Source: Vicia villosa (lineage: Eukaryota; Streptophyta; Magnoliopsida; Fabales; Fabaceae). From it: a DNA stretch of 64,000 bases. The position numbers and the translations under genes are program-made. Shown in pieces: positions 1,449 to 41,002 of this stretch. The stretch lies in contig NC_081183.1 in NCBI RefSeq assembly GCF_029867415.1, positions 35,360,655 through 35,424,654 on the forward strand, written 5' to 3'. The notes under the pieces are model-generated. The model saw nothing but the letters and a program-made list of their open reading frames with translations. It made no database searches and was not told the DNA's origin. Numbering within the stretch: the stretch's first letter is position 1; each line of letters begins with the position of its first letter.

Positions 1449-1757
1449 AGGTCGACCTACTATGCATATAGGTCGACTCAACACAAGCAAAACAAGAAGA
1501 ATGCAGAAAAGCAGCAGTTAGGTCGACCTACTGTCAACCCAGGTTGACCTAAAATGGAGAAAATTCCATACACTTCTGCTAGGTCGACCCACACATCAAC
1601 TAGGTCGACCTAAATTGAAGAAATGTCCCAAAACGCACTTGAAGAGAATTCTGGTCGACCTACTTCCCTAACAGGTCGACCTAACTGGGAGCAAATATCA
1701 TTCAAAACTAATGCACCTCTGCTAGGTCGACCTAAGCACCATAAGAGGTCGACCTAA
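1449..1757. promoter_or_regulatory. Five pairs of palindromes (core GGTCGACC) in the 5' LTR
   Basis: The motif TAGGTCGACCTA or a one- to two-base variant occurs ten times. The copies form five pairs: each pair has about 10-15 bases between motifs, and pairs start at about 1449, 1519, 1580, 1651 and 1722. The array ends about 55 bases before the TATA-like box at 1811, which is where an enhancer or upstream promoter module would sit. I recall conserved palindromes being reported in Sirevirus LTRs. The protein that binds them is unknown to me. Confidence 0.85.
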
Positions 1758-1810
1758 TTGATCAAAAATGCCAAAATTTCTGTTCTTCTCTGCTCCAACT
1801 GATAAGCTCT

Positions 1811-1820
1811 CATATATATT
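1811..1820 (+). promoter_or_regulatory. TATA-like box of the element A LTR
   Basis: CATATATATT follows the palindrome array directly. The equivalent position in element E (56194-56202) also carries a TATATATAT stretch, so the box is conserved within the family. Confidence 0.6.
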
Positions 1821-2805
1821 GTCCAAGGTTCAATTATTGAAGCAACACCAACGACTGAAAGATACACAAAGGCTTCTCATCTTCGTTCTTCGTCATCTCC
1901 AACAAAATTACACATAATCATTCTTGCGTTGAGGGTTAGTGATCGAGTTCGATAACGTCCATGGAACGGAATTGAAGATTCCTAGTGGGTGAAGATTTGT
2001 GGGGTTTTTGGTGAATAAAATCCGAGGGTTTTGTCCTCCAAGATAGGTGTTTCTTGGGGGTTTTTATCAAGAGGTTTCATCGAGGATCCATCTGAGTGTG
2101 AAGATTGAAGAACAAGGGTTCAAGGCAATTCAAGACACTGCAGAAAAGGGATCAAGTGAAGCTCTTGGATCACCTTGATCTGACTCAAGATTAAGGGGGA
2201 AGAAGATTCAAAGGATCGACAAATTCGGTTTATTGTTTATCGCTTTGTTTTCTTCTTTGTATAAACTGCTTTCAATATTAATGGAAGATTTCCCAATTTC
2301 AATTTGGAATTGGGGGCAGACGTAGTCGTAGCGAGGACGATCGACGAACTGCCTGAACAAATATCGCGTTCTTGTCGCTTTTATCTTTTCATTTACGTTC
2401 TGTTCATATTTGGTCATAATTGCAAAATTGATTAACGATTCAAGTGTTAAAATTGTGAATTAAGGTTCTGCATAAACATCACAATTCACCACATCTTGAA
2501 TCATCATCAATTTGAACATTATCACCAAGTGTTTGTCTTTTTGCTTATTCCATTATTACTGCATTGCAAACCAAAGTTTGTCAACTTAGAAGTAAATTGA
2601 TTTTCAGCTGTGAAACGTATTGATTCGATAACATATCACTTCATCGTTAATCTCAATTATCTTGTGGTTTTGTCACATATACGACCCTTGCAATAACGGT
2701 CCGGAATAGACGCAAGTCGATTCAGAACCGCTTTCGCTTTATTTCGAAATAATTCCGAAAAAATCTGTGAGATCTATTCACCCCCCCTCTAGAGCGTTTA
2801 ACAAG

Positions 2806-2817
2806 TGGCATCAAGAG
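2806..2817 (+). other. Primer binding site (initiator tRNA-Met type), degenerate
   Basis: TGGCATCAAGAGC lies two bases after the LTR. It matches the usual TGGTATCAGAGC with a substitution and an inserted A. Element E keeps the canonical form at 57195-57206. Confidence 0.8.
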
Positions 2818-2858
2818 CTCTGGTTTATTCCGTGCTACGTGAAACACTTATTGGAAAG

Positions 2859-4598
2859 ATGGCTTCCGGACCTAAAGGGGCTCACAATAGAGCTCCAGTT
2901 TTCAACGGTGAAAACTATGGCTATTGGAAGGATTGTATGTGTGTCCACATCAATGCAATTGATAGAAACATCTGGACAGCTATTGTCAATGGTCCCTTTC
3001 AGATCACCATGACAAATGCAGCTGGTGCAGTTGTTCCAAAACCAGAAAATACTTGGGATGCTGAAGATGAAAAGAGATATGCATACGATTGGAAAGCGAG
3101 AAACATTCTAATCTCAGCTCTAGGAGTTGATGAATATTATCGCGTTTCCCATTGTAAATCCGCTAAAGCTATGTGGGACACATTGCAAGTTTCCCACGAG
3201 GGAACGGATGATGTCAAACTAGCTAGGATCAATACGTTAACTCAAGAGTTCGAACTCTTCCACATGGAAGATGGTGAATCCATCAAAAACATGCAGAAGA
3301 GATTCGTTCACCTGAAAAATCGGTTAAATTCTCTTGATAGACCTGTTTCCAATGTAGTTGCTACTAACAAAATCTTAAGATGCTTGAACAGGGAATGGCA
3401 ACCCAAGGTTACAGCAATAAAGGAAGCAAATGATCTAAACACTTTAGACATTACCACTCTCTTTGGTAAACTAGAGGAACATGAACAACACCTTAAATGT
3501 CTTGACATGCATGAGAAAAGGGCAAAGAAAGAAAAGAACATGGAGAAAGAGGTAGAGAAGAAGTCAATAGCTCTAAAAGCTTCAAGCTCCAAGACCTCAA
3601 GACAAGAGCTAGAGGATAGTGATACAAGTGATGACGAAGACTCCGATGATGAGGAAATGGGACTGTTTGTGCGAAGATACAACAAATATCTAAAGAAAAA
3701 TGGAGCAAAAAATTCTGACAAAGGCTTGATCAACTATAGAAAGCAATCAAACAAGTTCAAACAAGATGACGACAACAAAGGAAAAATCAAAGGCCCTTGC
3801 TTTAATTGTGGGAAAGTCGGTCACTACAAACCGGATTGTCCATACCTTAAGAAGGAAAAAGAGAAGAACCAAAGCAAAGGTCATAACAAATCTAAGAGAG
3901 CCTACATAGCATGGGAAAGTGATTCATCTAGTGAAAGCTCATCAAGCGATGAAGAAAAATCAGCAAACCTATGTTTTATGGCTCATCAACACAAGAAAAA
4001 GAAAGCTGTAAGTCATCTTAAACCTGAACTCGTAGATAAGGTATCTCATTCTCAACTAAAACTTGCTTTTGAAGAATTACATAGAGATGCAATTAAAGCT
4101 TTCAAACTTTTGGCCTCAAATAAGAAAATCTTTTCATATCTTGAATCAAAAGTTGAGAAAACCGAAAAGGATATGGAAGCTTTAAAACAATCTATGCTAG
4201 ACATTCAAAAGGATAAAGTTGAAATAGATCCTACATCATGGTTTGGTTGTGAGACATGTCACATTTGGCAAAAAGAAGTAAGAGATCTAAAAGCCAAGTT
4301 AGACAAGGCTCTACAACCAAAAGTGACCTTTGCGGTTGATCCAAATAAGTTCAAAAGATCGTATACTCCTTTATATAGTAAATACACTTTTGTACCAAAA
4401 GTATCAACTAGCAAAACAGCATATTCTCATCATATTACCTGTCATTATTGTTGCAAAAAGGGTCATACCATTGAAAAATGCAAATTTAGGAGGATTTTAG
4501 TTCCTAAAGGAGTATTTCAATGGTTGCCTAAGTGCAACAACTTCTGTACTCACCACCTAGGACCCAATGAAGATTGGGGACCTTCCATTCTAAATTAA
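2859..4598 (+). CDS. gag: Gag polyprotein of element A
   Basis: This is the structural protein of the retrotransposon particle, expected in cytoplasmic virus-like particles where it packages element RNA. I chose the ATG at 2859 because the same MASGPKGAHNRAPVF start occurs in element E and the upstream open frame lacks an ATG. The protein has about 579 residues. It has an N-terminal UBN2-type Copia gag domain (GENYGYWKD onward), an acidic Asp/Ser stretch near residues 255-275, and a CCHC zinc knuckle at 314-327 (CFNCGKVGHYKPDC). A Lys/Glu coiled-coil-like segment and a second knuckle at 528-541 (CHYCCKKGHTIEKC) follow. The frame is intact from start to stop, unlike the pol downstream. Its TAA separates it from the decayed protease. 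Confidence 0.88.
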   Translation: MASGPKGAHNRAPVFNGENYGYWKDCMCVHINAIDRNIWTAIVNGPFQITMTNAAGAVVPKPENTWDAEDEKRYAYDWKARNILISALGVDEYYRVSHCKSAKAMWDTLQVSHEGTDDVKLARINTLTQEFELFHMEDGESIKNMQKRFVHLKNRLNSLDRPVSNVVATNKILRCLNREWQPKVTAIKEANDLNTLDITTLFGKLEEHEQHLKCLDMHEKRAKKEKNMEKEVEKKSIALKASSSKTSRQELEDSDTSDDEDSDDEEMGLFVRRYNKYLKKNGAKNSDKGLINYRKQSNKFKQDDDNKGKIKGPCFNCGKVGHYKPDCPYLKKEKEKNQSKGHNKSKRAYIAWESDSSSESSSSDEEKSANLCFMAHQHKKKKAVSHLKPELVDKVSHSQLKLAFEELHRDAIKAFKLLASNKKIFSYLESKVEKTEKDMEALKQSMLDIQKDKVEIDPTSWFGCETCHIWQKEVRDLKAKLDKALQPKVTFAVDPNKFKRSYTPLYSKYTFVPKVSTSKTAYSHHITCHYCCKKGHTIEKCKFRRILVPKGVFQWLPKCNNFCTHHLGPNEDWGPSILN

Positions 4599-5060
4599 TT
4601 TTGCAGGAAAAGTGTCTTGACATCGCCGAAAGGTGGTGGTTCCTTGATAGCTGATGCTCAAGACACATAAAGGGAGACATATCACTTTTGGTATGTCATC
4701 TATGAAGAACTATACTGGGCAAAGGAAATGTAGGTGACCTGGCCACCACTAATGTATATGATACATCACAAATGCAAGTTAACCCGAAAAACACAAAGGA
4801 CGCATTACTTGATGTGCAATTGGCAAATTGCATTGCAAGGAAATTTAAACCTATTCTAAGCAGAATAATGTTTGGGACCCTGTCCCGCATCCGGGAGAAC
4901 ATCAAGTAATCGATACTAGAAGAGTTTTTCGCAAAATCAAGCAATCAAGTCATGAAACATTCTATCCAGACAATTCATCATCAAATCTAGGAGTATGGCA
5001 CACTGACAAGAGGATTCCACACAATGATGACAAAACACCTACACATTGAGAAAGCGGTAA
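4599..5060 (+). pseudogene. Decayed protease and reverse transcriptase scraps of element A
   Basis: About 4612-4700 corresponds to the start of the Copia protease. By comparison with element E the catalytic DSGCSRHM region is recognisable, but it is broken by substitutions and a stop. About 4850-4990 encodes a short piece resembling the N-terminal Copia RT (VWDPVPHPGEHQVIDTRRVF). Integrase, most of RT and RNase H are absent. The two scraps lie next to each other, so a large internal deletion has removed the middle of pol. Confidence 0.7.
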
Positions 5061-5627
5061 CATGTTTATTGTTCACTTCCAAAAATTTTATTGATACTAT
5101 AATATGCTATCAATTAACATGCTTATAGTGACTTCATGTATGTTTATCCATATATCTCAATTACATATATGTGTCTATCATCTCCATTCATAACATATCA
5201 TGTTTTGGGCATACAAGCAAGTAACTAAGCATAAATGCATCATATAGTAACATCCCTAAGGCATTTCAAACATTTGAAGCAACTTAGGTTGACCTACCTT
5301 GCATCTGAGTCGACCTACACAAGTCATTTTTCAACATACCAGCCAAAATGCCCAGTTACGTCGACCTACCCTCCTTTTAGGTGGACCTAATCTGCAATTT
5401 TTTAAAGGCTTCTCTGTTAGGTCGACCCAGCCCTAAATTAGGTCGACCTACTGCTTCAAAAATTCCCAAAATTGGGTCTGTTGGTCGACCCGACCCATCC
5501 CTATTCATTCATAATCTTTCCTCTTTTCATTCCCACTCATTCTCATATCATTGTGTACGGCCAACCCTAATTCCTCAAGTTCAAAGAGTGTCAAAGACCA
5601 TCTCTCTCACTCTACTACTCAACAACC
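5061..5627. promoter_or_regulatory. aORF leader of element A with a second palindrome array
   Basis: From 5285 to 5498 there are seven GGTCGACC-type palindromes, three clear pairs plus one more, matching the LTR array in core and pair spacing. After them come TCTCATATCATTGTG (5541-5555), similar to the LTR TATA region, and a pyrimidine-rich leader of about 70 bases ending at the aORF ATG. The layout suggests an internal promoter that reuses the LTR module. That function is an inference. Confidence 0.65.
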
Positions 5628-7049
5628 ATGCCTCCAAAATCAAGAAAGGGAAAGGAAATTGCCTCTGGTTCATCATCTCAACCGGTAAGTGCTCTTGTTC
5701 ATCCTGATTGTAGGGAAAATTTTGAGAAATGGCAGATGAAAAGAAAAATTGTTAAGCAATATACCTATGATCCAAATCTTGTCAAAAACATGCATATCCC
5801 CGATGTCGCTGCTTTGATTGAACATCAAAATATTCATCCCTTAGTGCAATGTGATACTCCGTACTGTGAAAATACCGTCAGGGCTTTCTATGCAGGATTT
5901 ACAAAAGGGGATGGTTGTAATTTCCGATTCAAAATGGGCTCTAGGTCGCATGTTGTTGACAAACGGGCTTGGATTAGTATCTTTGGTCTCAAAATTGTAG
6001 GTGATGAATTCTGTATGGAAGACGGGGATGTACCGGGAAACTATGACCATGTGGCCTACATGAAGTCTATCCTCAAAGACCCTTCCGTCTTTGACAAACC
6101 TAATGAAACAATAACAGCCGGTCACCTGAAGCGAGATCCTAGGCTCCTAAATTGGGTCATCTCAAGAATCATTCGACCAAGAGCAGGAGGGTACTCAAGA
6201 ATTGAAAGGAATGAAGTTGTGCTCATGTATCTGCTGCAAAACAGAACGCGTATACATTGGCCTTACTTCCTTGCTGCTAAGTTTCATGAGGTCCAACAGA
6301 AAACTACAGCCCTGTGTTATGGATCAATCATTCAAACAATTGTCAATCACTTCGGCATGCGGCTTGATCACTTACACTACATCAGCATACACCAATCTCA
6401 AGAATTCTCACAAACCACCTTGACTCTTATGGGATACCATTGGAATCCAGTTAGGAAAACCTACTATCTCATTCAAAAGGGAACCGGGAAGGTTATTTAC
6501 AATTATGATGATCCCACGGAGTTTGGAAACAATGCAGGAAATGAAGAAGAAGGACTTGATCAAGACAATGCAAATGATGATGATCACCACATGGAAGATG
6601 TTGCACAAGATACGGATGCAAATTGGAGATATGTTCCTCCACAACAAGAGGATATCCCTTAGGGATACACGGCTCCACCTCCGCCGGATCAAACCAACAT
6701 CATTTCCATGTTAGAGAATATGCAACTCCTACAACAACAACACTTCGACACACAACAGCTCCAATTCCAACAAATGCAACAGCTCCAACAAGATCGCTAT
6801 GACGAACAACAACGACAATATCAATCGTTGTACAACTTAGTTCAAGACCACAAAAGCGATTTTGAGACTTTTGCCTCCAACTCGACTCTAAGACAGAATC
6901 AGTTTGAGGAAACGGCATTGCATCGTCATGCCAACATAAGCCAAAGCTTCAACACTCTCAATCTATCTGTGCTTGATTTGTTGGAACAAGTTGAAGAGGA
7001 TCGTCCTCATACATTTCAAAGAGGAAGAGGAAGAAGGGGCAGGCGTTAG
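5628..7049 (+). pseudogene. aORF of element A (plant-transposon-protein-like), split by one TAG
   Basis: This ORF lies between pol and the 3' LTR, the position often called env-like in Sireviruses, but I see no signal peptide or membrane segment. It starts MPPKSRKGK and would encode 473 codons. The segment around residues 60-180 (VRAFYAGF, then VDKRAWISIFGL) resembles the 'putative plant transposon protein' domain found in retroelement-associated ORFs. The C-terminal 110 residues are Gln-rich with coiled-coil character and end in a basic RGRGRRGRR tail. A single TAG at 6660-6662 splits it. The same frame stays open on both sides (5628-6659 and 6663-7046), and the stop precedes a Gly-Tyr-Thr-Ala-Pro stretch, so it looks like a recent CAG to TAG change. 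Function is unknown. Confidence 0.7.
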
Positions 7050-7432
7050 GATGCATTCTCCATCATATCATCATATTATTGCATTTCATTTCATTATCCT
7101 TATGTTATGTTCTTACATATTGTCGTACTGTGCTTTTTCTTTTCTTGGATTATCATATATGGTAAAGTGTACCTTTAAACATGTTTGGTTCTCATGGTTT
7201 CACTATCTACATTTTATCTATTATTATGAATGCTGGTATTTTTATCTATGTTTCTCTCGTTATTCTTCTGTTTTTTTCTTGTATCTCTTTTGATGTTGTC
7301 AAAGGGGGAGATAGATGCTGAGGGTACGGGGGAGCTCAGCTGAGTGAATAGATGCTGAGTGTACGGGGGAGCTTTTACCACTTATTGCCAAAGCTTCTAC
7401 TATCGGTTTGCCATCATCAAAAAGGGGGAGTA
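7050..7432 (+). other. 3' untranslated tail of element A with repeated polypurine tracts
   Basis: The T-rich tail holds AAAGGGGGAGAT near 7303. A unit containing GATGCTGAG-GTACGGGGGAGCT follows twice (about 7313 and 7351), and the terminal AAAAAGGGGGAGTA abuts the 3' LTR. Only the last is in the standard plus-strand primer position. I recall multiple polypurine tracts being reported as a Sirevirus trait. A hydrophobic ORF across this region is a by-product of T-richness. Confidence 0.75.
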
Positions 7433-8922
7433 TGTGAATACAAGATCACACTCACAAAGATGTTTTTGATTCATGGCAAACTCAACAAGCATACAAGCAA
7501 CAAGGCACAAGCAGAAGAACTCAAAGAAAAGCAAGCATTGATCACTTATGACAGAGCAGGTCGACCTACTATGCATATAGGTCGACTCAACACAAACAAA
7601 ACAAGAAGAATGCAGAAAAGCAGCAGTTAGGTCGACCTACTGTCAACCCAGGTCGACCTAAAATGGAGAAAATTCCATACACTTCTGCTAGGTCGACCCA
7701 CACATCAACTAGGTCGACCTAAATTGAAGAAATGTCCCAAAACGCACTTGAAGAGAATTCTGGTCGACCTACTTCCCTAACAGGTCGACCTAACTGGGAG
7801 CAAATATCATTCAAAACTAATGCACCTTTGCTAGGTCGACCTAAGCACCATAAGAGGTCGACCTAATTGATCAAAAATGCCAAAATTTCTGTTCCTCTCT
7901 GCTCCAACTGATAAGCTCTCATATATATTGTCCATGGTTCAATTATTGAAGCAACACCAACGACTGAAAGATACACAAAGGCTTCTCGTCTTCGTTCTTC
8001 GTCATCTCTAACACAATTACACATAATCATTCTTGCGTTGAGGGTTAGTGATCGAGTTCGATAACGTCCATGGAACAGAATTGAAGATTCCTAGTGGGTG
8101 AAGATTTGTGGGGTTTTTGGTGAATAAAATCCGAGGGTTTTGTCCTCCAAGATAGGTGTTTCTTGGGGGTTTTATCAAGAGGTTTCATCGAGGATCCATC
8201 TGAGTGTGAAGATTGAAGAACAAGGGTTCAAGGCAATTCAAGACACTGCAGAAAAGGGATCAAGTGAAGATCTTGGATCACCTTGATCTGACTCAAGATT
8301 AAAGGGGAAGAAGATTCAAAGGATCGACAAATTCGGTTTATTGTTTATCGCTTTGTTTTCTTCTTTGTATAAACTGCTTTCAACATTAATGGAAGATTTC
8401 CCAATTTCAATTTGGAATTGGGGGCAGACGTAGTCGTAGCGAGGACGATCGACGAACTGCCTGAACAAATATCGCGTTCTTGTCGCTTTTATCTTTTCAT
8501 TTACGTTCTGTTCATATTTGGTCATAATTGCAAAATTGATTAACGATTCAAGTGTTAAAATTGTGAATTAAGGTTCTGCATAAACATCACAATTCACCAC
8601 ATCTTGAATCATCATCAATTTGAACATTATCACCAAGTGTTTGTCTTTTTGCTTATTCCATTATTACTGCATTGCAAACCAAAGTTTGTCAACTTAGAAG
8701 TAAATTGATTTTCAGCTGTGAAACGTATTGATTCGATAACATATCACTTCATCGTTAATCTCAATTATCTTGTGGTTTTGTCACATATACGACCCTTGCA
8801 ATAACGGTCCAGAATAGACGCAAGTCGATTCAGAACCGCTTTCGCTTTAGTTCGAAATAATTCCGAAAAACTCTGTGAGATCTATTCACCCCCCCTCTAG
8901 ATCCTCAGGCCAACGTCTAACA
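7433..8922 (+). repeat. 3' LTR of element A
   Basis: It starts TGTGAATAC and ends GTCTAACA. It matches 1324-2803 with about 1 percent mismatches by eye, plus 11 bp near its end that the 5' LTR has lost. The palindrome array repeats at about 7558-7866. Confidence 0.93.
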
Positions 8923-13820: not shown

Positions 13821-14020
13821 TTTGTCAGTGTAGTGTTTGCTTTAATTATTGTTGTTTCAATATGTCAGTGTAGTGTTTGCTTTAATTATTGTTGTTTCAA
13901 TATGTCAGCGTAGTGTTTGCTTTAATTATTGTCGAATCTATATGTCAGTGTAGTGTTTGCTTTAATTATTGTTGTTTCAATATGCCAGTGTAGTGTTTGC
14001 TTTAATTATTGTCGAATCTA
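13821..14020. repeat. Five 40-bp tandem repeats
   Basis: Units start at 13821, 13861, 13901, 13941 and 13981 and contain GTGTAGTGTTTGCTTTAATT. The last ten bases switch between GTTGTTTCAA (units 1, 2 and 4) and GTCGAATCTA (3 and 5), so the array has a higher-order alternation. It lies directly after the ORF1 stop. Confidence 0.93.
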
Positions 14021-14324
14021 TTCGAATATATTCCTTGTCTGATAATTAACTCTATACAATAAATTATTTCGAATCCGTCAGTGGTCCACCACCCAATTCG
14101 AATATATTCCTTATCTGATAATTAACTCTATACAATAAATTATTTCGAATCTGTCAGTGGTCCACCACCTATTTCGAATCTATTCCTTATCTGATAATTA
14201 ACTCTATACAATAAATTATTTCGAATCCGTCAGTGGTCCACCACCCAATTCGAATCTATTCCTTATCTGATAATTAACTCTATACAATAAATTATTTCGA
14301 ATCCGTCAGTGGTCCACCACCCAC
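14021..14324. repeat. Four 76-bp tandem repeats before the transposase
   Basis: Units start at 14021, 14097, 14173 and 14249. Each holds TTCGAAT twice and GTCAGTGGTCCACCACC, which contains the near-palindrome GGTCCACC-type block. The array ends about 5 bases before the transposase TATA box, so it may act as a promoter-proximal element. Confidence 0.93.
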
Positions 14325-20786: not shown

Positions 20787-20792
20787 AGTTTT

Positions 20793-23572: not shown

Positions 23573-23588
23573 TAAAGGGTAATGGACC

Positions 23589-23636: not shown

Positions 23637-23753
23637 GCTTGTTTTCATTAACATGTGCTTTTGTTTTCTTTATTTTGTTTTAGTGCAGGTAGTAGAGTTT
23701 GAACAGGTAGGAGCAACTCGAAGAAGGTACAAGTTGATGCTAAGAAGATCATC

Positions 23754-23990
23754 AACACGGGCGCCCGTGTGTAGCAACACGGCCCGTGTTGAGCCATACT
23801 CAGTTGAAAAATGAATTTTTTTTAGGAAAGCTTCAGCACCTGCAACACGGCCACCCGTGTGCAGGAACACGGTCCGTGTTCAGCAACACGGCCACCCGTG
23901 TGCATCCACACGGCCGTGTGGTCTATGCGGGCCAGAATTTTAAAATTTTTCCCACTCTTCCATGTGGGCCCCACCTGCGTTATATCTCTC
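23754..23990 (+). promoter_or_regulatory. aORF upstream module: three palindrome pairs plus TATA-like box
   Basis: Three pairs of ACACGGCCACCCGTGT-type motifs lie at 23754-23920 with the same within-pair spacing as the LTR array. GTTATATCTCTC at about 23979-23990 follows about 55 bases later, with a pyrimidine-rich leader after it. Layout and motif repeat the LTR promoter region. Confidence 0.65.
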
Positions 23991-24225
23991 TTCTTCCTCC
24001 ACCCATTCACTTTTCTCACTTCTCACTCACTTTCTCCATTGAAACCTAGCCTCCACCTTCACTAAAGTCACTCACCCACCATCAAACACCCACTTAATCA
24101 CCATATTGCCTTCACAAAAGTTACTCCACTCATCATCCTCTACATTCCTATCGGTTTAGATTTTGATTTCTCTGCATTTTAATTTCTGCGAATTTTTCCT
24201 TTTGTGTGTTGTTTCTTGTTTTGTA

Positions 24226-24234
24226 TTTCTGCAG
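24226..24234 (+). promoter_or_regulatory. Possible 3' splice site before the aORF
   Basis: TTTCTGCAG preceded by a long T-rich tract ends eleven bases before the aORF ATG. It looks like a good plant acceptor, so the aORF may be translated from a spliced transcript or its leader may contain a short intron. No donor is certain. Confidence 0.45.
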
Positions 24235-24244
24235 AGATTTTATC

Positions 24245-25576
24245 ATGCCTCCCCGAAAGACAACTCAGCGCCGCAACGTAAGGGATGATTTTCTTGCAGA
24301 ATCCTCCCAACCAAGACAACGTGTCCGTCGCGCTTCTAGTCGCGCAACCGGTCGTGGGAGGGACGAAGAAGAGAATGCCCATGGCATTACATTTGCCCTT
24401 CCTGAGCACAAAGCCAGGTATGATGTATTAGTGCAGCGTACTTTACTCCCGACCCGGTATATTTGTGATGAGACCCTTGTAAAGTTAGGCCTTAAGGATG
24501 AAGTGTACCGCATGTTTCACAACATCGGGATGTTACCGTTTATGTTATTTGAGGCACCGACTTATGAGGGTCTAACTCTTGAGTTTCTGAGCACGGTAGA
24601 TTTTAAGTTGAGGCACAAATGGAATGGCTCCGAAATGGAGTATTTTGGTAATCTTGAATTCTATATGTTTGGAAATAAGCACACTCTTTCTGTAGAACAG
24701 GTTGGGGAAGCCTTAAAATTACCTTCTGCAGGACCAGGAGCCCCACCTGAAACTTTCCCTGCTTGTGAATTTTGGGAAGCTATAACTGGTTCACCGGGGT
24801 ACAATCCTAGCAGGGCTAAGGCCTCAGGGATTCATAACCCATGCTTCAGGTATGCTCAGAAAGGGTTAGCCTTTACCCTTTTTGCGAGGGGAGATAGCAC
24901 AGGGGTGTGTGCTAAGAGGGAACTGTTCCTGCTAAATAATATGATTGAGGTAAGTCGTGTAAATGTGGCCGCTTTTGCTGCTAATCACCTTAAACAGGTG
25001 GGGAATGCCTCTTCGGGAGAGATCTCTGTGGGTGGGATGATCACCCAGCTAGCTGATTACCTAGAGTATAGTCAACTCTTGATAGAGGAGCCCTCTATCC
25101 CAGGTAAGAAGATTGACATGCAGACTCTTGTCAATCAAAAAATGATTGTAGTCCAGCCAGGGTACTACTCTCTCATGATGCACGGGCAGCACATTATGGC
25201 ACTACCGGCACCTGACACTATTTCTATTGCTAACCGTGCTAACTGGCTGTATGTAGCTACAGGTGGTGATATGGGTGAAAGCCCTCCACATGGTCATAAC
25301 TTTGCAGGTGATGACATGGAGGATGACATGCCTAACCAGGATCATCCGGTACCACCCCCCCAACAATTCTTCCAGCACACTGATGGGTCATCCTCCATGA
25401 CTCAAGATCAATGGGGGTGGGTACAGACGGAGATTGGAGCCCTCCGGACTGAGCAGACACGGCAAGGTGTTGAGTTGTTTCGGCAAGGGGCAGTGATAGA
25501 TGATGTCCAGGAGATGATGCGCCGCCTTATGATGCATTATCCTCAGGATCCCCCTCCTCCACCACCATTTCAGTAA
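24245..25576 (+). CDS. aORF of the Athila-type element (plant-transposon-protein-like)
   Basis: The intact ORF has 443 residues. I choose ATG 24245 (MPPRKTTQRRNV), because the longer upstream frame is leader. The N-terminal 45 residues are basic (RQRVRRASSRATGRGRDEE) and could be a nuclear localisation or nucleic-acid-binding tail. The central region (about 90-250) with LEFLSTVDFK, TLSVEQVGEALKLPSAGPG and FTLFARGDSTG has the pattern of the 'putative plant transposon protein' (Arabidopsis retrotransposon ORF-1) family. The C-terminus is Pro/Gln-rich. I see no signal peptide or membrane helix, so the old label 'env-like' is not supported. Its start MPPRK resembles MPPKSRKGK of the element A aORF, and both lie in the same post-pol position. 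Confidence 0.8.
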   Translation: MPPRKTTQRRNVRDDFLAESSQPRQRVRRASSRATGRGRDEEENAHGITFALPEHKARYDVLVQRTLLPTRYICDETLVKLGLKDEVYRMFHNIGMLPFMLFEAPTYEGLTLEFLSTVDFKLRHKWNGSEMEYFGNLEFYMFGNKHTLSVEQVGEALKLPSAGPGAPPETFPACEFWEAITGSPGYNPSRAKASGIHNPCFRYAQKGLAFTLFARGDSTGVCAKRELFLLNNMIEVSRVNVAAFAANHLKQVGNASSGEISVGGMITQLADYLEYSQLLIEEPSIPGKKIDMQTLVNQKMIVVQPGYYSLMMHGQHIMALPAPDTISIANRANWLYVATGGDMGESPPHGHNFAGDDMEDDMPNQDHPVPPPQQFFQHTDGSSSMTQDQWGWVQTEIGALRTEQTRQGVELFRQGAVIDDVQEMMRRLMMHYPQDPPPPPPFQ

Positions 25577-26939
25577 GCGGGTAGGCCCTGTCACACTGGA
25601 ATTTAAACATTGCGGACAATGTTTCGTTCAAGTGTGGGGGAGGGTCTTACTTCTTATTTTATTTTGCTTTATTGTCTTATTTTTATTTTAGTTGCTTTAT
25701 TGTTTTCTACTTTCTGTTTTTGAATTTTGACCAGTTCTTTGTCTTTCTGTTTTGTTTTTATTTCGAGTTTCAATGCTGCCATGGTGTTACCAGGTTCGAT
25801 ACAAGTCGGAAAAGGTGCAAACGAATAGAAAGTGGTTGAACAACACAACTCACACTTAATCTCTACAGGCACCACAGAAGTTGACACAACCAAGAAAAGA
25901 AGGTAGGACGCAAGGAAGCACACTGAACCAAGAAAGAGTATGGTGAACTTTTGATGAAAGGAAATGGCAAAACACTTAGAGTACGTTGAAGCATGCAAGC
26001 TTAACCGACCCGGTGAGACATCAGAGCCAAATGCATAACATCCATATGAGAGTCAAGTTCAGGTATGGCACTATTCACTTTGATTTTGCGTATTTTCTCA
26101 TAACACAAGCACACTATGAAAGCGCACACTGAGGCAAGTTTTTTTTGTTTTAACCCCGAGCCTTTTTAACCATCCCGTTTGCATGTTATCCATTGTTAAC
26201 CCCCTTTGAGCCGTAATTTTTATTTTTGTTCATCGTGTTATTTTCCCACCACTTGCCTTCTCATTGTTTGTATCATTGCTCGGCATTCATAATAGATCAC
26301 TCGAAAGACATAAAAAGATCTAAGTGTGGGGTTGTAAACCATTGAAGAGTGGAACAAGAAAAGAGTACAAGAAAAGAAAAAAATTTTGAATATAGATCTT
26401 ATGAAAACAAAAAGAAAAAAAAAAAGAGAAGAGAAAAAGAATAATGCATGTACCCTTGTCCATTTTTAGCTAAAGAAGGTTTAAACCCCATTCTTAAGAT
26501 ACAGATCAAAATGAGTGAAGAAGTGAAACCTATGTGATGCCGAGCACTTAAAACCAATCGTTATCCCATTCCTTGTTAACCCACCAAACCTAAGCCACGT
26601 TTCAACCCGAAGACCTCATAAAGTGTGTGTGATCCTTGTGTGTAGTGATTTGAGAATTTATTCAAAGTTAAAAGTAATATGCATGCCTTGATACTATGAG
26701 TGTAAACACCTTAACCCGGAGAGATTTTGTGAGAATGTGAAAAGCTTGCAGGTGATAGACGTGCTCGAAGGTGGGAATGCCATGGATAGTCGGAAGAAGG
26801 GAACCTTACACTTGATTGCTAAGTGTAGGAACCTTGCGAAAAACCTGGTTGTGTTGTGGAGAAAAGAATCTTGTCGGTGACCTTTTGTTTTGACTCGATA
26901 CATCACTTGAGGACAAGCAATGAGATAAGTGTGGGGTTG
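25577..26939 (+). other. 3' noncoding region of the Athila-type element
   Basis: No gene is seen. The polypurine-type phrase occurs three times: CAAGTGTGGGGGAGGG at 25629-25644, TAAGTGTGGGGTTGT at 26321-26335, and the same fifteen bases at 26926-26940, where they abut the 3' LTR as the functional tract. A purine-rich stretch with long A runs lies at 26340-26440. Confidence 0.8.
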
Positions 26940-28370
26940 TGATCGGTCACCATTTCTAGTAAGTTTCCACACCTTTTTCCGATCAAAAGTTGTAATCTTG
27001 GTAATACAATGTGGCATTGTTTTAAGTTTTTATATAAGTTCCTTAGTTTTTCGGTTGTTTGAGCTTTTACATTATTAGTGTGTTTAAGCTTCATAAAAAT
27101 GCCATTTTATGCGTTGGTTGTTAGTATGTTGTTGGCCAGGTTAATCCCGAGAAAGATGGCGCTCCGAGGCGAGAAAAAGGAGCTGAAAGAGCTAAAGAAG
27201 AGGCCAACACGGGCACCCGTGTGCACCCACACGGCCGTGTCAAAAGCTGCCTGGAAAGTGGATTCTGGAGAGCAAAACAGAGGTTTTACACGGGCACCCG
27301 TGTTCCTGCACACGGCCCGTGTGGAAAAGTGCCCAGAAAGTGAATTTTGAGGTGAGGGCCAGATGGACAACACGGGCACCCGTGTTCCTGCACACGGCCC
27401 GTGTTGTTGAGCGCGGGCAGATGTTCTAATTTTGATATTTTGGAAACCTTGGGCCTCATTAAGGGTATTTCGGTCATTCCGGATACTGAGTGAGTGAAGC
27501 AACACTACTAAAACCTAACAGGAATAGAAGAGAGGCATCTTGGATCATCGAGCAGAGAGAATTACAGAGAAAGAAGAGTCAAGGGTTTTGGAAGAAGATC
27601 TTCAAGAGCACTGGCGATTGGAGATCATATCAACCACTAATTTCTTGTAATGACTTCAATTACTCTTGTTGTTTTCTTTATCATTATGAGTAGCTAAACA
27701 ACACTATGCTAGGGGTGATGTCCCTGAATCTTTTTATGTGATGAATTGTCACAACCGTTGTTGATGAATTTGATGTTTAATTATAAATTGAGTTTTTGAT
27801 TCATTGTTCTTAATGCTTTATTATATTGGAAAGTATCTTATCGTTCTATGGTTAGGGTTTGGCGTGACAAACCTCCCTAATGCTTGTGAATCAAAACACT
27901 TCCGGCAAATCGCTTAGGAATAAGGATTGCACTTTAGTGATCATTCATTCTAGACTCTAATGCATAAAAGACCTAATACTAAATTCAGTTATTGAGGAAT
28001 TGAGATTGTCTAATTAGTGTTAAGGGGTTCTTCACTAAGGAATTAGGGAGAACTATTTATAGAATTGATACACAGTTATAATTAAATCATCTCATGAACA
28101 CGGTGGTTTCAAGGAGTTACATAGGATTCATACATCTACCTTAGCATATCTGCTCATATTTGCACCAAGCTATCTTTTATTTAGTGTTTTATTTATTTCT
28201 AGTAATTCTAATTAATCAAACAAACCAAAACAACCCCCATGATATTTTTGTTCAATTGAATCATTGTGAAACTTGTAGTTTACACGCAGTCCGCGAGTTC
28301 GATACTGGGTATTTACCCTTCTTTACTACTACATCGAGGAAATAGTACACTTGCTATAATTTCCCGATCA
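26940..28370 (+). repeat. 3' LTR of the Athila-type element
   Basis: The sequence is 1431 bp, offset by exactly 7584 bp from the 5' LTR with no difference found. It ends CCGATCA before the duplication GGTTG. Confidence 0.95.
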
Positions 28371-29048: not shown

Positions 29049-32000
29049 TTGTTTTTTTAAATAAGCAATGGCATTAAAAGAGCAAAAGGGATGCTCTACC
29101 CAATACAAAACAGAAAATTACTTCTCCACACAAAGAAGAGGAGAAGTATTCCAAGAATAGAAATTACAACAAGCAGCTATTTTAAAGTAAGATCTAATCC
29201 AACACCAAGACAAAGCGACAATATCCGAATAGACTTCGGTGAAACTAAAGTTGTCTTCCTTGAAGATTATGGCGTTACGTCTCAACCATATACACCAAAT
29301 TGAAGCCAACCAGATAACCGCCATCATAGATCTCTTAGCCAAACAATTCACCTTATTCAAAATAAAAGGAAAACCTTCTAAATCCTTCAACGACAACTCC
29401 GGCCCGTAATTAATCCACACAAGAACCTTCTTCCAAATACCACCTACAATCTCACAATCTCCTAAAAGATGATGTAAAGACTCCTCCTTCATTTTGCAAA
29501 AGACACATAATAAATCATTAGAATCCAAAATTCCCCGTTTACACAATTGATCCTTCGTTGCTATCCGATTGTGAATGACTCGCCAACCAAAAAATTGCAA
29601 TTTTGCTGGGACTTTAAAACTCCAAATATTTGCTGCTGCCTTGGCTACAGACGAGTGTAAAGCAGGCCCAGAAAGTTTGCAGAAAAACCTATCATAAACG
29701 GATTTAACCGTGAACACACCTTCAGCATTCAATTTCCACGAGAAGCTGTCCCTCACCGAAGCTGCCGGCTGGACCTGGTTCAGAAACTCACGCATTTCTT
29801 GCAACAGCAGAACCGTGGCAACATCATTGTTGGGCGCTATTCTCTGTAAATTCCAGCTCCAAGAATTCGCGTCGTTGCTGCCAGCTTCTTGCACGGACAT
29901 GGCATCATTGACAGCACACACGTATAACTCCGGATAGGCTTCAATTAGGGACTGATCAGCTAACCAACAGCCATGCCAAAACGGAATATCCGCCCCATCG
30001 CCAACTTGACACTTAATAGCACCTGAAAAATTATCTTTGAACAACAAAATATAATTATCCGAAGTAAGTAAATCCCTCCACCATATAGAGTCATTCTTTT
30101 CTATCCTCGAAACATCACCTACTAAAACTTTTTTCTTCACCTCCCCGTATCTAGATCTCAATAAACCGTACCACACCGCCTTCTCCTCTACAAGGATCCT
30201 CCACTTCCACTTGCTAAGTAAAGCGACATTCAAAATCTCCACATTTTTCACTCCTAAACCACCTTCTTCTTTACTTTTGCAAATAGTTTCCCACGACACC
30301 CAATGAATCGATCTCTTCCCTTCATTAGCATTCCAAAGAAAGGCACTTTGAATGGCTCTAATCTCCTTTAGGACTTTTTTAGGAGCTTTGTAAAACGACA
30401 AAGTATATAACGGAATAGCATTCAACACCGAATTGATCAAACAAACCCTTCCTGCCATATTGAGCGTTATGCCTTTCCACACCGCAAGCTTCTTCTTTAA
30501 TTGAGTTAATAAATCTCTCCACATTGAAAACTTCCTAGGATTATCCCCCACCTTAACTCCGAGAAATTTAAAAGCAAGGGAATCAATCCTACACCCTAGA
30601 AACACGGATGCCGCACTAAGAAACGAGTCCCCCACATTGACACCATATATGTTACTCTTATTAAAATTGACCCTCAATCCCGCCATAACCTCAAAACCCC
30701 TCAAAATTGCTTTAATGCTCCAAATGTTCTCAAAAGTAGCCTCGGCCAAAATGATAGTATCGTCCGCGAATTGAAGCATATCCACACAATCCGTTTCATT
30801 GAACTTAAAACCTCTAAAATCTCCTATGACCGAAGCTTTCTTAATTAAAGCCGTTAACACCTCCGTTGCAAGGACAAACAAGAAAGGAGATAGAGGATCT
30901 CCTTGACGAAGCCCTTTTTCTACCTTAAAATCCTTAGTAACGCTACCATTAACTAAAACCGACAAATAGCTATTAAAGACACTACCCTCCATCCACGCCA
31001 ACCATTTATCTCCAAAACCCATCTTTCGAAGAACCAATCTCAAAAAATTCCAACTCACTCGATCGTAGGCCTTTTCGAAATCAACTTTCATAACGAAACA
31101 ACTCCTTCTCATCCTCTTGGCTAGATCCAAAACTTCACTCACCATCAACACTCCATCCGCTATGTTTCTCCCCGGAACGAAGGCGGTTTGATTCAACGAA
31201 ACCAATTTCCTTAAAACACCTTTCAACCTCCTCGCCAAAAGCTTGGAAAGAATCTTGTAAAGACTACTCACAAGGCATATAGGTCTATATTCGGACAAAG
31301 CTTGAGGATTCTTAACTTTGGGAATAAGAGCTAAAAAGGACGAGGATACACCTTTAGGAGTCCTAGCCCTATGATAAAAAACTTCCACAAACCTCATCAC
31401 ATCTTCTTTAATCGTTTCCCAAAATTGTTGGAAGAACTCCAAAGAGAAACCGTCTGGCCCCGTACTTTTATTGCCATTACAATCCCAAACCGCCTCCTTT
31501 ACTTCCTCTATGTTGAACGGTCTTTCCAACCACAAACTATCCAACTCTTCTAACACCGGTAACGACAAACCCTCCGGAGTGGCTCTCTCGAAATTTTCTT
31601 CTTTAAAAAAAGTTTCGAAGTGATTCTTGACTTCCCTTTTCACCTCATCCACACCTTCCACCCTACCATTTACACCATCCAAGACCGATAAAGCGCACCT
31701 CCGTCTCCTATCTTTGATAGAATTGTGAAAAAATCTAGTATTCCTATCCCCTTCCTTCAACCATAATTGACGAGACTTAAGAAGAAGCATACTCTCTTTT
31801 AGGTTCAAACAATTCCACACTTCATTAGATGCATGCTTCCTTTTCTCCACCAAATGCAAGATGTCTCCACCATAGTTATCGACTAGGTCATTATCAATCT
31901 CATTTAACATTTCTACTTCCTCGTTTACTTTCAAATCGATCCATCCAAAAACATCCCTATTCCATGACTTTAATTTCTCCTTCAATCTTTTGAGCTTTTC

Positions 32001-32090
32001 AATCAAAACATAATCGCCTCTTCCCGTCACCTTGAGATTCGCCCATTCATAAGACACCTTGTGATTGATTGAAAAATAATTATTGGTTGG
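29049..32090 (-). mobile_element. 5'-truncated LINE (L1-type non-LTR retrotransposon)
   Basis: On the minus strand it ends in a short A run (TTTTTTT on the plus strand near 29049-29056) and is cut off upstream of the RT, so the endonuclease and ORF1 are missing. This is usual for abortive target-primed reverse transcription. The phrases AAAAATGAGATATTG (left) and AAAAATAATTATTG (right, near 32080) may be a degraded target duplication, but I am not sure of that. Confidence 0.8.
29118..32057 (-). CDS. LINE ORF2, reverse transcriptase and zf-RVT domain (5' partial)
   Basis: An uninterrupted frame of 979 residues remains, although the coding start was lost by truncation and the first codon shown is not a true start. 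The RT spans about 210-500. It includes NKSTGPDGFS, ALIPKVKNP, RPICLVSSLYKI, the first Asp in KVDFEKAYDRVSW, GLRQGDPLSPFLF and the catalytic FADD near residues 430-433. The C-terminal zinc-binding RVT region holds WSFKVPAKLQFFGWR, then CVFCKMKEESLHHLLGDC. An open frame of this length in a truncated copy indicates a young insertion. Confidence 0.9.
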   Translation of the reverse strand: MSYEWANLKVTGRGDYVLIEKLKRLKEKLKSWNRDVFGWIDLKVNEEVEMLNEIDNDLVDNYGGDILHLVEKRKHASNEVWNCLNLKESMLLLKSRQLWLKEGDRNTRFFHNSIKDRRRRCALSVLDGVNGRVEGVDEVKREVKNHFETFFKEENFERATPEGLSLPVLEELDSLWLERPFNIEEVKEAVWDCNGNKSTGPDGFSLEFFQQFWETIKEDVMRFVEVFYHRARTPKGVSSSFLALIPKVKNPQALSEYRPICLVSSLYKILSKLLARRLKGVLRKLVSLNQTAFVPGRNIADGVLMVSEVLDLAKRMRRSCFVMKVDFEKAYDRVSWNFLRLVLRKMGFGDKWLAWMEGSVFNSYLSVLVNGSVTKDFKVEKGLRQGDPLSPFLFVLATEVLTALIKKASVIGDFRGFKFNETDCVDMLQFADDTIILAEATFENIWSIKAILRGFEVMAGLRVNFNKSNIYGVNVGDSFLSAASVFLGCRIDSLAFKFLGVKVGDNPRKFSMWRDLLTQLKKKLAVWKGITLNMAGRVCLINSVLNAIPLYTLSFYKAPKKVLKEIRAIQSAFLWNANEGKRSIHWVSWETICKSKEEGGLGVKNVEILNVALLSKWKWRILVEEKAVWYGLLRSRYGEVKKKVLVGDVSRIEKNDSIWWRDLLTSDNYILLFKDNFSGAIKCQVGDGADIPFWHGCWLADQSLIEAYPELYVCAVNDAMSVQEAGSNDANSWSWNLQRIAPNNDVATVLLLQEMREFLNQVQPAASVRDSFSWKLNAEGVFTVKSVYDRFFCKLSGPALHSSVAKAAANIWSFKVPAKLQFFGWRVIHNRIATKDQLCKRGILDSNDLLCVFCKMKEESLHHLLGDCEIVGGIWKKVLVWINYGPELSLKDLEGFPFILNKVNCLAKRSMMAVIWLASIWCIWLRRNAIIFKEDNFSFTEVYSDIVALSWCWIRSYFKIAACCNFYSWNTSPLLCVEK

Positions 32091-32528
32091 GGAGTTACAG
32101 TTGTGTTTACGGTGGAAATCAGAGACCTAATTTATATCTTGTTCGGAGTGGTTTGTTAGCCCCATAGTGAAAGGTCCAATAGCGGTATCCAGAAATAGAA
32201 TGCATGGAATAGGTAGCTACTCACTAACATTTACTGGCTACACTGCTAGCTTTCTATTCTGTTTTTATTGATACGAGATGAAGGAAGTTTCATTTTGAGT
32301 TATTATATGCAATCTTAGAAATGAGGCATATCTTATTAAAGTTTGCTTGTCTTGCACTTTCAGTTGCTGTATCTTAGCCTCTTAGGACTAAAATGAACAG
32401 AACAAGGAAGAGGACACATCCTATAATCAAATTTCAACTAAGATTCAATCCAAGGTTAAAGCATATGTTAAACAAACAAAAGAAAAGGATGTCTCATGTA
32501 ACAAAAAGAGAGAGTTTCCAAAGCATAC
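32091..32528. other. Intron-like sequence of the AAE13-like fragment
   Basis: No exon is recognised between the LINE and the second exon. The stretch about 32285-32398 has a diverged copy split by the MULE at 37790-37819 and 41054-41335, so it belongs to a duplicated segment. Confidence 0.5.
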
Positions 32529-37650: not shown

Positions 37651-37810
37651 CTTTTATGAGTTTTGCAAAAATCCTTTGTATTACTTAAGCTAGGTTCAAT
37701 TTGATGTGTAATTTAATTATTATCCTTAAAAGTTATTGCTACTGCTGAATCTTCTTCTAAAGTTTTCATCTTTGCTGTGTTGATGCCAAATGATTTGAGT
37801 TATCATATGA

Positions 37811-37819
37811 AATTTTTTG
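37811..37819. repeat. MULE target-site duplication (left), 8 of 9 matching
   Basis: AATTTTTTG before the left end; AATTTTTTA at 41054-41062 after the right end. Nine bases is the Mutator length. Confidence 0.65.
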
Positions 37820-37881
37820 GAAAATTCTTTTCCCACCTCCCAACCTTCTAGGTCACCTCTGGTGAAAAATCCAAAATACCC

Positions 37882-38027
37882 CTTACTTCGGAAATGCATC
37901 TCCGATATGCAAGAAAAAGGTGTTTTCGGAGATGCATCTCCGAAAGCGCCTTTTTTTTTCAAAATTTGTCTTGTTTCGGAAATGCATTTCTGAAAACACC
38001 ATTTCGGAAATGAACTTCCGAAATATT
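37882..38027. promoter_or_regulatory. Left palindrome cluster of the MULE-like element
   Basis: Four copies of TTCGGARATGMAYYTCCGAA-type palindromes occur, in two pairs with about 20 bases between pair members. Individual copies carry one or two mismatches. Confidence 0.75.
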
Positions 38028-38385
38028 GCGCGTTATGCAAATTTAGCAAAACAGCCCCCCTCCCCCATTCACTTTACCCTAAATCTACTTCAAACTTCCT
38101 CTCTTCAAAAATTTCTGCAAAAGCAAGTGTGTATCAAACATTTAGACATTCCAAAAGCTTCCCTAACTCAACCTAAATCATCCCAATCTCTTCAATTGGT
38201 AAGTTTTTCAAATTTTTCAATTTTTAGATCCATTATTAAAATCTCTATTAGGGTGTTTAGAAATTGTAAAAACTGTATTAGATTAGGTTGGTACTGCTAT
38301 TTAGGTTGTTTAGATTGAATAAAACTTGATTTGAACTTTGTTTTTGGGGTCTGCCATGGAAGTTGCAGAAAACTTCCTCGCAGGG

Positions 38386-38447
38386 GTGTTTCGGAAGTTC
38401 ATTTCCGAAAACACCTCCATTCCCAGTTTCGGAAATGAACTTCCGAA
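38386..38447. promoter_or_regulatory. Palindrome pair upstream of the PMD gene
   Basis: TTTCGGAAGTTCATTTCCGAA and TTTCGGAAATGAACTTCCGAA are separated by about 18 bases and lie 75 bases before the ATG at 38523. This is the same motif as at the two transposon ends. Confidence 0.75.
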
Positions 38448-38522
38448 TTGTATCAGAAGTCCAATTTTTTTAGTTCTTTATGTTGTCTCGCATATTAATC
38501 GATTTCAATTGTTTTCAGGAAC

Positions 38523-40616
38523 ATGTCAGGCAACCAAGCACGCATCAGACAGGGTAGAGAAACCCAGACTGCGTTGGCTAGACGCGAGCGGGCGGCGGCG
38601 CAGCTGGCGTCGACACAGGGACGGGGGCAGGGCCGAGGACGACGTGTGCGAGTTCCCATGGAGATGGACGAGGGTACCTCTACATCTGGATCGAGTAGTC
38701 GTCTGCCTCGGGTATCATCTTCCCGCCAACGAGAGGAGGAGGAGGAGGAGGAGGTGGCAGTGCCATACCATGAAGCGGAGGAGGTACCAGATGTTAACCC
38801 TCCACTCGGGGAGGAAGATGAGCAGGAGGAGGGCTTCCCGGGAGGGCCCAGTGACACTTCCGTGCTGCTTACCTACCGCAATCACGTCGCTCGGTGTATT
38901 TGGGAGGGAGAGGTATTTTTTATAATTTGCCCGACTACATTATTTAACCGTTTATAATTTAGACGTTTATTCAATATTTTCTTAACGGTCTATTTAACAT
39001 ACTTTTTTATTTGTTTTTTTTGTAATAGGAGAGAGAGCCGTTGAAAATGGTGAACCACGCCCGGAAGGTTTTCAGTCTGTTTAAACCGACTGCCGAGTGG
39101 TTTAACGACACTGTGAGAGGTTCAGGGTTTAGTGGGCTCTGCATGACGGGGTATTACACCATCGGCCACGGCATGCAGGGGGCCTTTGTGGAGCGGTGGC
39201 ACAAGGAGACGTCTTCTTTCCACTTGCCGATTGGGGAAATGACGATCACCTTGCATGATGTGCTGTGTCTTCTCCACCTGCCGATCAGGGGGGCGCTGTT
39301 GACCCACTCCCGGATCCAGGGGATCGAAGCCAGTGAGTGGATGGCGCTCTATTTGGGTATGGAGCCCGAACCTGCTGACTACGAGTGCATCACGACATTT
39401 GGGCCTCATATCCGGTTCACCACACTGAGCCGCTATTTCGAGCAACACCAGGACGCGGCGGCCGATACCGAGGATGCGGGTGACGACCTATTTACACATT
39501 ATCACCGTGGCTGCGCTCTCCGGTGCTGGTACATGCATGTGGTAGGCGCTGCGATCTTTGTGGACAAGAGTGCGAGGTACGTCGACGTGACCTACCTCCG
39601 CTACTTCATGGACTTGACCACCGTTCACCAGTGGAACTGGGGGGCAGCTACTCTGGCATACCTATACCAGAAGCTGAATGAGGCCTCCAACTGGAGGACG
39701 AGGCAGTTGACCGGATCCTGCACACTACTCACGGTACGTTTCATTTTAATTGTTTCGTATTTATTTATGTTTCGTATTTGTGTTTCGTATTTACTTATGT
39801 TTCGTATTTATTTATGTTTCGTATTTACTTACGGTACGTTACATTATCGTGTTTGTGTTTCAGAGCTGGATCATCTCTTACTTCTCCCGGATCCACGGCT
39901 TTCACATTGATCCTGAGAGCGTTGACGCCATGCCCAGGGCCTCTAGATACGTTCTCCAGAGGGGGAACAATGCGGTGGGACCATATCGTGGGTACCTGGA
40001 CCGCACGATGCACGATGACGTCACCTGAAGGCCATTCAACGACTACACTCAGGTTGTCCCCTTTGACGGCATATCTTTATATTCTGGCTGGTTGGCATGC
40101 ATAACCAGCATCATGGTCTGGTATCTCCCTGAGCGGTGCATGCGGCAGTTCGGATTTGTGCAAATGATACCCAGGTCACCTTTTGAGGCTGCTCCCGACA
40201 CAGTGACCAGAGTGCAGCTCACTGCCATATTTGAGGATTGGGAACATCATGTGGTACCGGAGGAGTATCGTCGCATTCGGGTCACCCAGGACTGGCACAG
40301 TGTGGAGGGGTACGTCACATGGTTCTACCGGGTGTCACATCCTCTGCTGACACCCGACGCTCCCGACACTCCTAGGCCAGCACACGAGGAGATCCTGGAG
40401 AACTAGCAGCCCGAGGATGACCACGCCATTGATCTCCTGCCGATCTGCCAGCGGATAGAGATGTTTGGGCGGGACGCGTTGGATCGAGGTGTCGTTCATC
40501 AGGGCGGTCCAGAGGCAGTCGCCGTGATGGAGATGATCGTCACTAATGCGGGCCGTGCGGCGGCATACAGGCGGCAGAGGAGGTCCCAGGGAGAGAGGGT
40601 TAGACATACCCAGTAG
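38523..40616 (+). pseudogene. Plant mobile domain (MAIN-like) gene in the MULE, three exons, two stops
   Basis: PMD proteins are related to MAINTENANCE OF MERISTEMS and to retroelement-encoded proteins; MAIN acts in silencing and genome stability. The exons are 38523-38912, 39029-39733 and 39864-40616, joined by GAG|GTATTT, GTAATAG|GAG, ACG|GTACGT and TTTCAG|AGC, all in phase 0. Exon 1 is basic then acidic (GRGQGRGRRVR; EEEEEEE). Exon 2 has the PMD core (WHKETSSFHLPIGEMTITLH, DVLCLLHLPIRG, YLRYFMDLTTVHQWNWGAA). Exon 3 continues it (YSGWLACITSIMVWYLPERC, FGFVQ). TGA at 40026-40028 replaces a probable Trp, and TAG at 40404-40406 is a second stop. Both can arise from C to T changes. The preserved splice sites indicate that the gene was functional until recently. 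Confidence 0.8.
39756..39838. repeat. Degenerate tandem repeat in PMD intron 2
   Basis: The phrase ATGTTTCGTATTTA recurs about five times at 14-17 bp spacing. It lies in the intron and does not touch the splice sites. Confidence 0.8.
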
Positions 40617-40835
40617 TGGTCGGTTTTTTTTTTTGTTTGTTTTCGGATTGTATCTTTCGTACATTATTATTATTTGGATTTGGATCGAATCGGCTTGTAT
40701 ATATTACTATTTTTATCATATTACTATATTAGTATTTTCTGTTTATATATCGCTTATTTTATTTGCCGTCTTCCTTTAATTAAAAATACGAGGCTGTTTC
40801 CAAAAACATAAAAAAAAAACACAGTTTCTGCATAA

Positions 40836-41002
40836 TTCGGAAGTTCATTTCCGAAACCCCCCAAAATCTGAAAAAAAGATGTTTTCGAAAGTGCATATCC
40901 GAAAACACCCCCCATTTGGTGTTTTCGGAGATGCACTTCCGAAGTCTGAGAAAATTTTTAAAAAAAAATACTTCGAAAATTCATTTCCGAAGCAGGGGTA
41001 AA
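40836..41002. promoter_or_regulatory. Right palindrome cluster of the MULE-like element
   Basis: Four TTCGGAAGTTCATTTCCGAA-type palindromes (one or two mismatches each) precede the right terminal inverted repeat, mirroring the left cluster. Confidence 0.75.

Follow-up and report, generated by a model that had tools for sequence, protein, structure and literature searches.

Why should short palindromes, gathered into arrays, stand both at the ends of a transposable element and again ahead of its accessory gene, and why in elements of different classes? We addressed this question in a 64,000-nucleotide stretch of Vicia villosa DNA (contig NC_081183.1, positions 35,360,655 to 35,424,654 of the forward strand; hereafter the window). 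A preliminary description had reported such arrays in a Sirevirus-type Ty1/copia element (element A), an Athila-type Ty3 element and a Mutator-like element (MULE-like) with a PMD gene. On recount its coordinates, site counts and palindrome cores for these three proved correct; its list of elements left out a further array, in a second element (B), and an array-free element (C). The arrays are real, and they are conserved in the one family in which copies were compared (A and B). The elements, arrays and genes concerned are:

1324 to 8922, plus strand: element A, Sirevirus-type Ty1/copia with gag and an accessory open reading frame (aORF); TG..CA ends, 5-bp target-site duplication (TSD) ATACG
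1449 to 1757, plus strand: array in the 5' long terminal repeat (LTR) of A, 10 GGTCGACC-type sites in 5 pairs
5285 to 5498, plus strand: internal array of A ahead of its aORF, 7 sites (3 pairs and 1)
5628 to 6659, plus strand: aORF of A, 344 aa to a stop from the ATG at 5628, weak Transposase_32 (PF20167) match
7558 to 7866, plus strand: 3' LTR array of A, the identical set of 10 sites
19356 to 28370, plus strand: Athila-type Ty3 element with gag-protease and ATHILA ORF-1; TSD GGTTG, LTR identity 99.93%
19623 to 19820, plus strand: Athila 5' LTR array, 3 pairs with centres 20-20.5 bp apart
23755 to 23921, plus strand: Athila internal array, 3 pairs, ahead of the aORF
24245 to 25573, plus strand: Athila aORF from the ATG at 24245, ATHILA ORF-1 family (PF03078, E 1.2e-27 on frame 24167-25573)
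27207 to 27404, plus strand: Athila 3' LTR array, the same 3 pairs
37820 to 41053 (approximate ends), plus strand: MULE-like element carrying the PMD gene, with imperfect terminal inverted repeats (TIRs)
37887 to 38022, plus strand: MULE left-end array, four TTCGGAA-N6-TTCCGAA-type palindromes
38390 to 38447, plus strand: MULE internal pair beside the PMD gene, 38 bp apart, possibly in a 5' intron of that gene
39029 to 39907, plus strand: PMD frame (PF10536, E 4.5e-29), whose model matches the VANC21-DNA complex 9lnj
40836 to 40991, plus strand: MULE right-end array, four palindromes
55832 to 56138, plus strand: 5' LTR array of element B (from 55693 onward), the same 10 sites and spacing as in A, linkers diverged

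CG-containing palindromes with arms of at least 6 number 71 in the window, whereas 20 dinucleotide shuffles yielded 14-30, with a mean of 19. Clusters, defined as at least three palindromes with the same arm inside 400 bp, start at 22 points (50 shuffles gave 0-6), and all 22 lie inside the A LTR, B LTR or Athila arrays; the A internal array and the MULE arrays fall below this filter. Exact GGTCGACC occurs 27 times in the window, every time in an A or B array, and ACACGG-N0-4-CCGTGT 18 times, every time in an Athila array.

Comparison of A with B separates the palindromes from their surroundings. Of the core bases, 78/80 are identical, while the linkers agree at 119 of 224 bases and differ at 105, four gap columns being set aside (Fisher p 2.6e-15, bases taken as independent). 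Between the two LTRs of A, the aligned stretch holds five differences, one of them inside a core. The nine Athila pairs all place a long palindrome (ACACGG-N4-CCGTGT) first and a short one (N0-1) second, and when six pairs are compared in register most core columns are identical in 6/6 and flanking columns mostly in 2-4/6. Retention of CpG was considered as a sign of selection and dropped, as the observed/expected ratio is lower in the A LTR arrays (0.66-0.74) than elsewhere in the A LTR (0.99).

The spacing of the sites is equally regular in the LTR elements. Within pairs of the A 5' LTR array the distance is 21-22 bp, and from pair to pair 40-51 bp. Successive centres are separated by 21, 50, 21, 40, 21, 50, 21, 51 and 22 bp in the A LTR, by 21, 51, 22, 40, 22, 50, 21, 50 and 22 bp in the B LTR, and by 21, 51, 21, 40, 21 and 42 bp in the A internal array, which can be aligned with pairs 1-3 of the A LTR array. 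The corresponding distances are 20, 61, 20.5, 61.5 and 20.5 bp in the Athila LTR and 20.5, 69.5, 20.5, 20.5 and 20 bp in the Athila internal array. The best-fit period of these arrays is 10.05-10.30 bp (R 0.91-0.99), and phasing is significant in 4000 draws that randomise all gaps (p <= 0.0003). If the gaps inside pairs are kept constant, p becomes 0.017 for A, 0.026 for B, 0.035 for A internal, 0.025 for the Athila LTR and 0.059 for Athila internal, values that are not independent, as the A, B and A internal arrays can be aligned with one another. Because R is low at 10.5 bp (0.09-0.64), we claim phasing for a period of about 10.2 bp. This supports the view that the sites in the LTR elements behave as conserved, dyad-symmetric, helix-phased predicted protein sites. 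The agreement in pairing and spacing claimed for all three classes thus survives for A, B and Athila, where within-pair centres lie 20-22 bp apart. It does not extend to the MULE-like element: each end has four palindromes, but two pairs per end are not evident, successive centres being 38, 50 and 28 bp apart at one end and 48, 40 and 48 bp at the other.

Placement fits promoters. Four arrays, those of the two A LTRs, the B LTR and the Athila internal region, are followed after 57-61 bp by TATATA or TATATC (TATATA at 59 bp for the A 5' LTR, TATATC at 60 bp for Athila internal), and CATATC lies 54 bp downstream of the A internal array. A TATA-like sequence thus occurs at a similar distance in 5/8 arrays tested, the CATATC form having joined the list only after it was seen in the A internal array. 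The 150 bp upstream of both aORF ATGs is 66-68% pyrimidine, and pyrimidine-rich stretches are a feature of plant leaders. Together these features fit a second promoter that would serve the accessory gene, as has already been supported for the env-like (ENV) gene of Sireviruses (PMC2829016).

In two of four relatives of the A aORF protein (P0003 and P0004) the reading frame extends upstream across the array, such that GGTCGACC is translated as Gly-Arg-Pro at residues 6, 13 and 27. These lie 21 and 42 bp apart, which is the spacing of the final three internal sites of A, and the array sites stand 147 bp upstream of the ATG, versus 145 bp in A. The other two relatives lack the upstream extension.

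What kind of protein might read such sites? The standout structural match of the predicted PMD model is VANC21 bound to its target DNA (9lnj), and 14/40 aligned PMD proteins have a weak match to DUF1985, a domain of VANC proteins; a domain search of the window PMD protein itself returned PMD only. The VANC precedent invoked in the preliminary description has therefore gained support. By profile comparison the A aORF is related to Athila ORF1, and the accessory proteins of the two elements look related; PF20167 (Transposase_32) and PF03078 (ATHILA ORF-1) are described as related in PMC11728184, which also reports a predicted nuclear signal.

We hypothesize that the arrays are promoter-associated modules for a dimeric, sequence-specific protein, likeliest the element's own accessory protein acting as a VANC-like anti-silencing factor, and give this tentative explanation somewhat less than an even chance. 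Each palindrome would be the site for one protein dimer, and in the LTR families spacing by whole helical turns would align the proteins along one face of the DNA. An array within the LTR or TIR from which the element is driven, together with a second one beside the accessory gene, could place element and gene under a common switch. The accessory protein, as the likeliest ligand, would load onto its own arrays and keep their promoters active or unmethylated, as VANC does for VANDALs. Binding, dimerisation, self-recognition and anti-silencing by the accessory proteins are steps that we infer. As a predicted function, recognition by the element's own protein is plausible and stands on firmer footing than was available before.

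A number of observations weigh against this hypothesis. The MULE arrays have no helical phasing (p 0.40-0.53), and no listed TATA form occurs within 200 bp downstream of the Athila 5' LTR, MULE left or MULE internal arrays. The aORF frame of A is split by its stop, beyond which the same frame stays open for another 128 aa. Element C has an accessory frame, yet palindrome arrays are absent from its 3' LTR and from the region upstream of its aORF (its 5' LTR was not identified). Foldseek returned 18 PMD hits and 9lnj was not one of them; a moderate Z can be incidental for a mostly helical model such as that of PMD, and the PMD profile has no relevant match by sequence in the PDB. The Athila aORF model is poor (pLDDT 48), its coiled coil being the sole matching part, and the published VANC21 motif has 9 bases, is not palindromic and occurs in a single orientation. 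Finally, PMC2829016 includes six further ENV-containing Sireviruses without repeats. The preliminary description had held that arrays kept in the absence of both an accessory gene and a partner family carrying one would speak against it, and this is partly the case: OPIE-2, PREM-2, Osr8 and Tnd-1 keep LTR arrays without ENV (PMC2829016).

That last observation also favors the principal alternative, in which the arrays are enhancers for dimeric host transcription factors, such as stress factors, and the accessory protein does something else, sharing no more than the promoter module. The A and B LTR arrays lie 57-61 bp upstream of TATA, and host factors were considered for the Sirevirus repeats in PMC2829016, where mainly stress-factor site matches were recovered. 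The same source found no single common host factor, however, and the cores differ by family, which fits family-specific recognition better. In its Table 3, 13 elements bear repeats, four of them without ENV, and internal copies occur in 9/9 repeat-bearing elements with ENV and 0/4 without, a tie that likewise fits family-specific recognition better. In other words, the internal copy tracks the gene, while the LTR copy can occur without the gene and the gene without the repeats. We regard host enhancers as a serious possibility, rather short of even.

Other explanations fare less well. Transcript hairpins feeding small-RNA silencing, or a role in packaging, would draw on the secondary structure of the palindromes. 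RNA folding does exceed shuffles in the A 3' LTR (z -9.6, 0/100 as good), the Athila 5' LTR (z -3.8, 1/200) and the MULE left end (z -10.3, 0/200), and an excess of small RNAs at palindrome clusters of maize Sireviruses is reported in PMC10760457. Good folding is nevertheless inherent to any palindrome array, a zero-loop GGTCGACC alone should make a poor hairpin, and phased centres with fixed 20-22-bp pairs are expected of proteins on duplex DNA and not of hairpins; we consider this explanation improbable. Recognition of the ends by integrase, transposase or the packaging machinery, with the internal copy incidental, would account for arrays in LTRs and TIRs. Yet the 5' LTR arrays are set back about 130-460 bp from the element's end, off the attachment site, those of A and B being upstream of TATA, and the internal copies would be left without a role although two relatives of A retain them, which makes such a function very unlikely. 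Neutral tandem duplication of a short repeat seems the least probable origin of all. The units do have the look of duplicates (those of the Athila LTR agree at 77.7%) and the LTR and internal arrays of A can be aligned, but cores resist change where linkers do not, despite mutable CpGs, and spacing is maintained.

How much of this is new? Element A agrees with the published Sireviruses, whose palindromic RM boxes stand in at least 8 copies in the upper LTR near TATA and upstream of the env-like gene: it has 10 such sites per LTR and 7 internal ones, as well as a copia gag (Retrotran_gag_2, E 1e-24) and a polypurine tract AGGGGGAG at 7423, 10 bp ahead of the 3' LTR (start 7433), with a second copy at 7303. 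Placement at the ends and before the accessory gene, seen in all three elements, is prior art for one of the three classes, and in the MULE-like element the internal pair may be intronic. Bousios et al. 2010 (PMC2829016) described palindromes that recur in the LTR, upstream of TATA, and once more ahead of the env-like gene, with CGG-CCG type cores like those here (Vitis RM CGGTCGACCG, Osr9 RM TTTTCGGACWTRTCCGAAAA), and stated that they are absent from classic Ty1/copia elements; the available part of that paper does not mention Ty3/Athila arrays, MULE arrays or pairing at two helical turns. Among open-access titles and abstract openings, no report of Athila palindrome arrays was found beyond the Sirevirus papers. 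VANDAL elements share with ours an element-encoded protein and motif arrays in their own non-coding DNA, introns included; they differ in having a non-palindromic 9-base repeat in one orientation, versus palindromes that here occur in LTR elements as well (PMC5735166, PMC10398659). The likeness to VANC21 is that of a predicted PMD model, and no publication attached to 9lnj was found. PMD proteins (MAIN, MAIL1 and transposon-borne forms) are known on MULEs and Gypsy elements, an anti-silencing role for captured PMD has been speculated, and host PMD proteins are required at genes with the promoter 'DOWN' motif (PMC5418596, PMC7156037, PMC9899485); the available parts of these papers do not describe DNA binding or an element-borne palindrome array. 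A likeness of PMD to VANC/DUF1985 went unmentioned in the open-access literature as available, subscription journals and preprints being outside that scope. PMC11728184 places its accessory frame in an Athila element, while here a Sirevirus-type element and an Athila copy both carry related genes and arrays.

The LTRs of A are 98.9% identical, and no pol, reverse transcriptase included, was found among the frames scanned. The Athila-type element has gag-protease domains (PF03732, E 1.4e-18; PF13650, E 2.6e-6) followed by ATHILA ORF-1, the Athila gene order, and no pol domain in two frames scanned; its assignment draws on gag-protease and ORF1, not on a reverse transcriptase clade, and the copy looks non-autonomous. 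Lacking pol in the frames scanned, both elements are probably non-autonomous, yet recently mobile. At 23609-23637, soon after the Athila gag-protease frame, lie two inverted repeats that overlap each other, ACGAAGCGCTTCGT and CGTGGGAGGCAACCCACG, unlike the array palindromes.

The TIRs of the MULE-like element align outside the palindromes (37783-37883 with 41085-40994, score 31, the highest score among 500 shuffles being 23), and with palindromes included the whole ends score 74.5 versus 29.5 (200 shuffles). No perfect 9-bp TSD was found at its ends; among 900 end pairs there are five one-mismatch candidates in AT-rich flanks, e.g. AATTTTTTG/AATTTTTTA. Four open reading frames scanned between 38335 and 40403 held no MURA-type transposase, so we use the label 'MULE-like' only. 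Its internal pair may lie inside a 5' intron, as read by eye (GTAAG at 38199, TTTTCAG ending at 38518). The palindrome at 37925-37944 carries mirrored changes in both arms relative to the TTCGGAAATGCATTTCCGAA form, its symmetry being kept. An eleventh hit (40642-40661, 3 mismatches) was discarded as chance.

The remaining features of the window are:

46136 to 55010: element C, Sirevirus-like, with gag, integrase and a Transposase_32 frame
50077 to 52887, plus strand: aORF of C, a 937-codon open frame (Transposase_32, E 1.7e-16)
44997 to 45962: F-box gene copy adjoining the gag side of C and resembling a stretch at 33.6-34.9 kb
14020 to 14323: 76-bp tandem repeat, four copies (96% matches), directly ahead of a Plant_tran transposase frame
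29118 to 32126, minus strand: reverse transcriptase frame (RVT_1, zf-RVT), which we take to be LINE-type; no palindrome cluster was found in this stretch

Element C has several AGGGGGAG copies (53049, 53710-53874) and a very low CpG observed/expected ratio (0.21). A 610-bp stretch of its gag region (47352-47961) recurs inverted at 55014-55623, beside its 3' end (89.8%). Among the protein relatives listed, those with names come from legumes, mainly the pea-vetch group (Vicia villosa, Lathyrus).

A broader proposal unites PMD, DUF1985/VANC, Transposase_32 and ATHILA ORF1 as branches of a single superfamily through whose members transposons recognise themselves. On this view the genes called 'env-like' in Sirevirus and Athila elements would encode VANC-like DNA-binding regulators of their own helix-phased promoter palindrome arrays, not envelopes, and host PMD proteins (MAIN/MAIL1) would have kept the DNA-recognition fold. 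The link between the PMD/DUF1985 and Transposase_32/ATHILA groups is not significant, and we think so wide a kinship unlikely. If accessory proteins do read the arrays, Class I and Class II transposable element families would share one anti-silencing strategy of self-recognition, and a biochemical role could be assigned to PMD.

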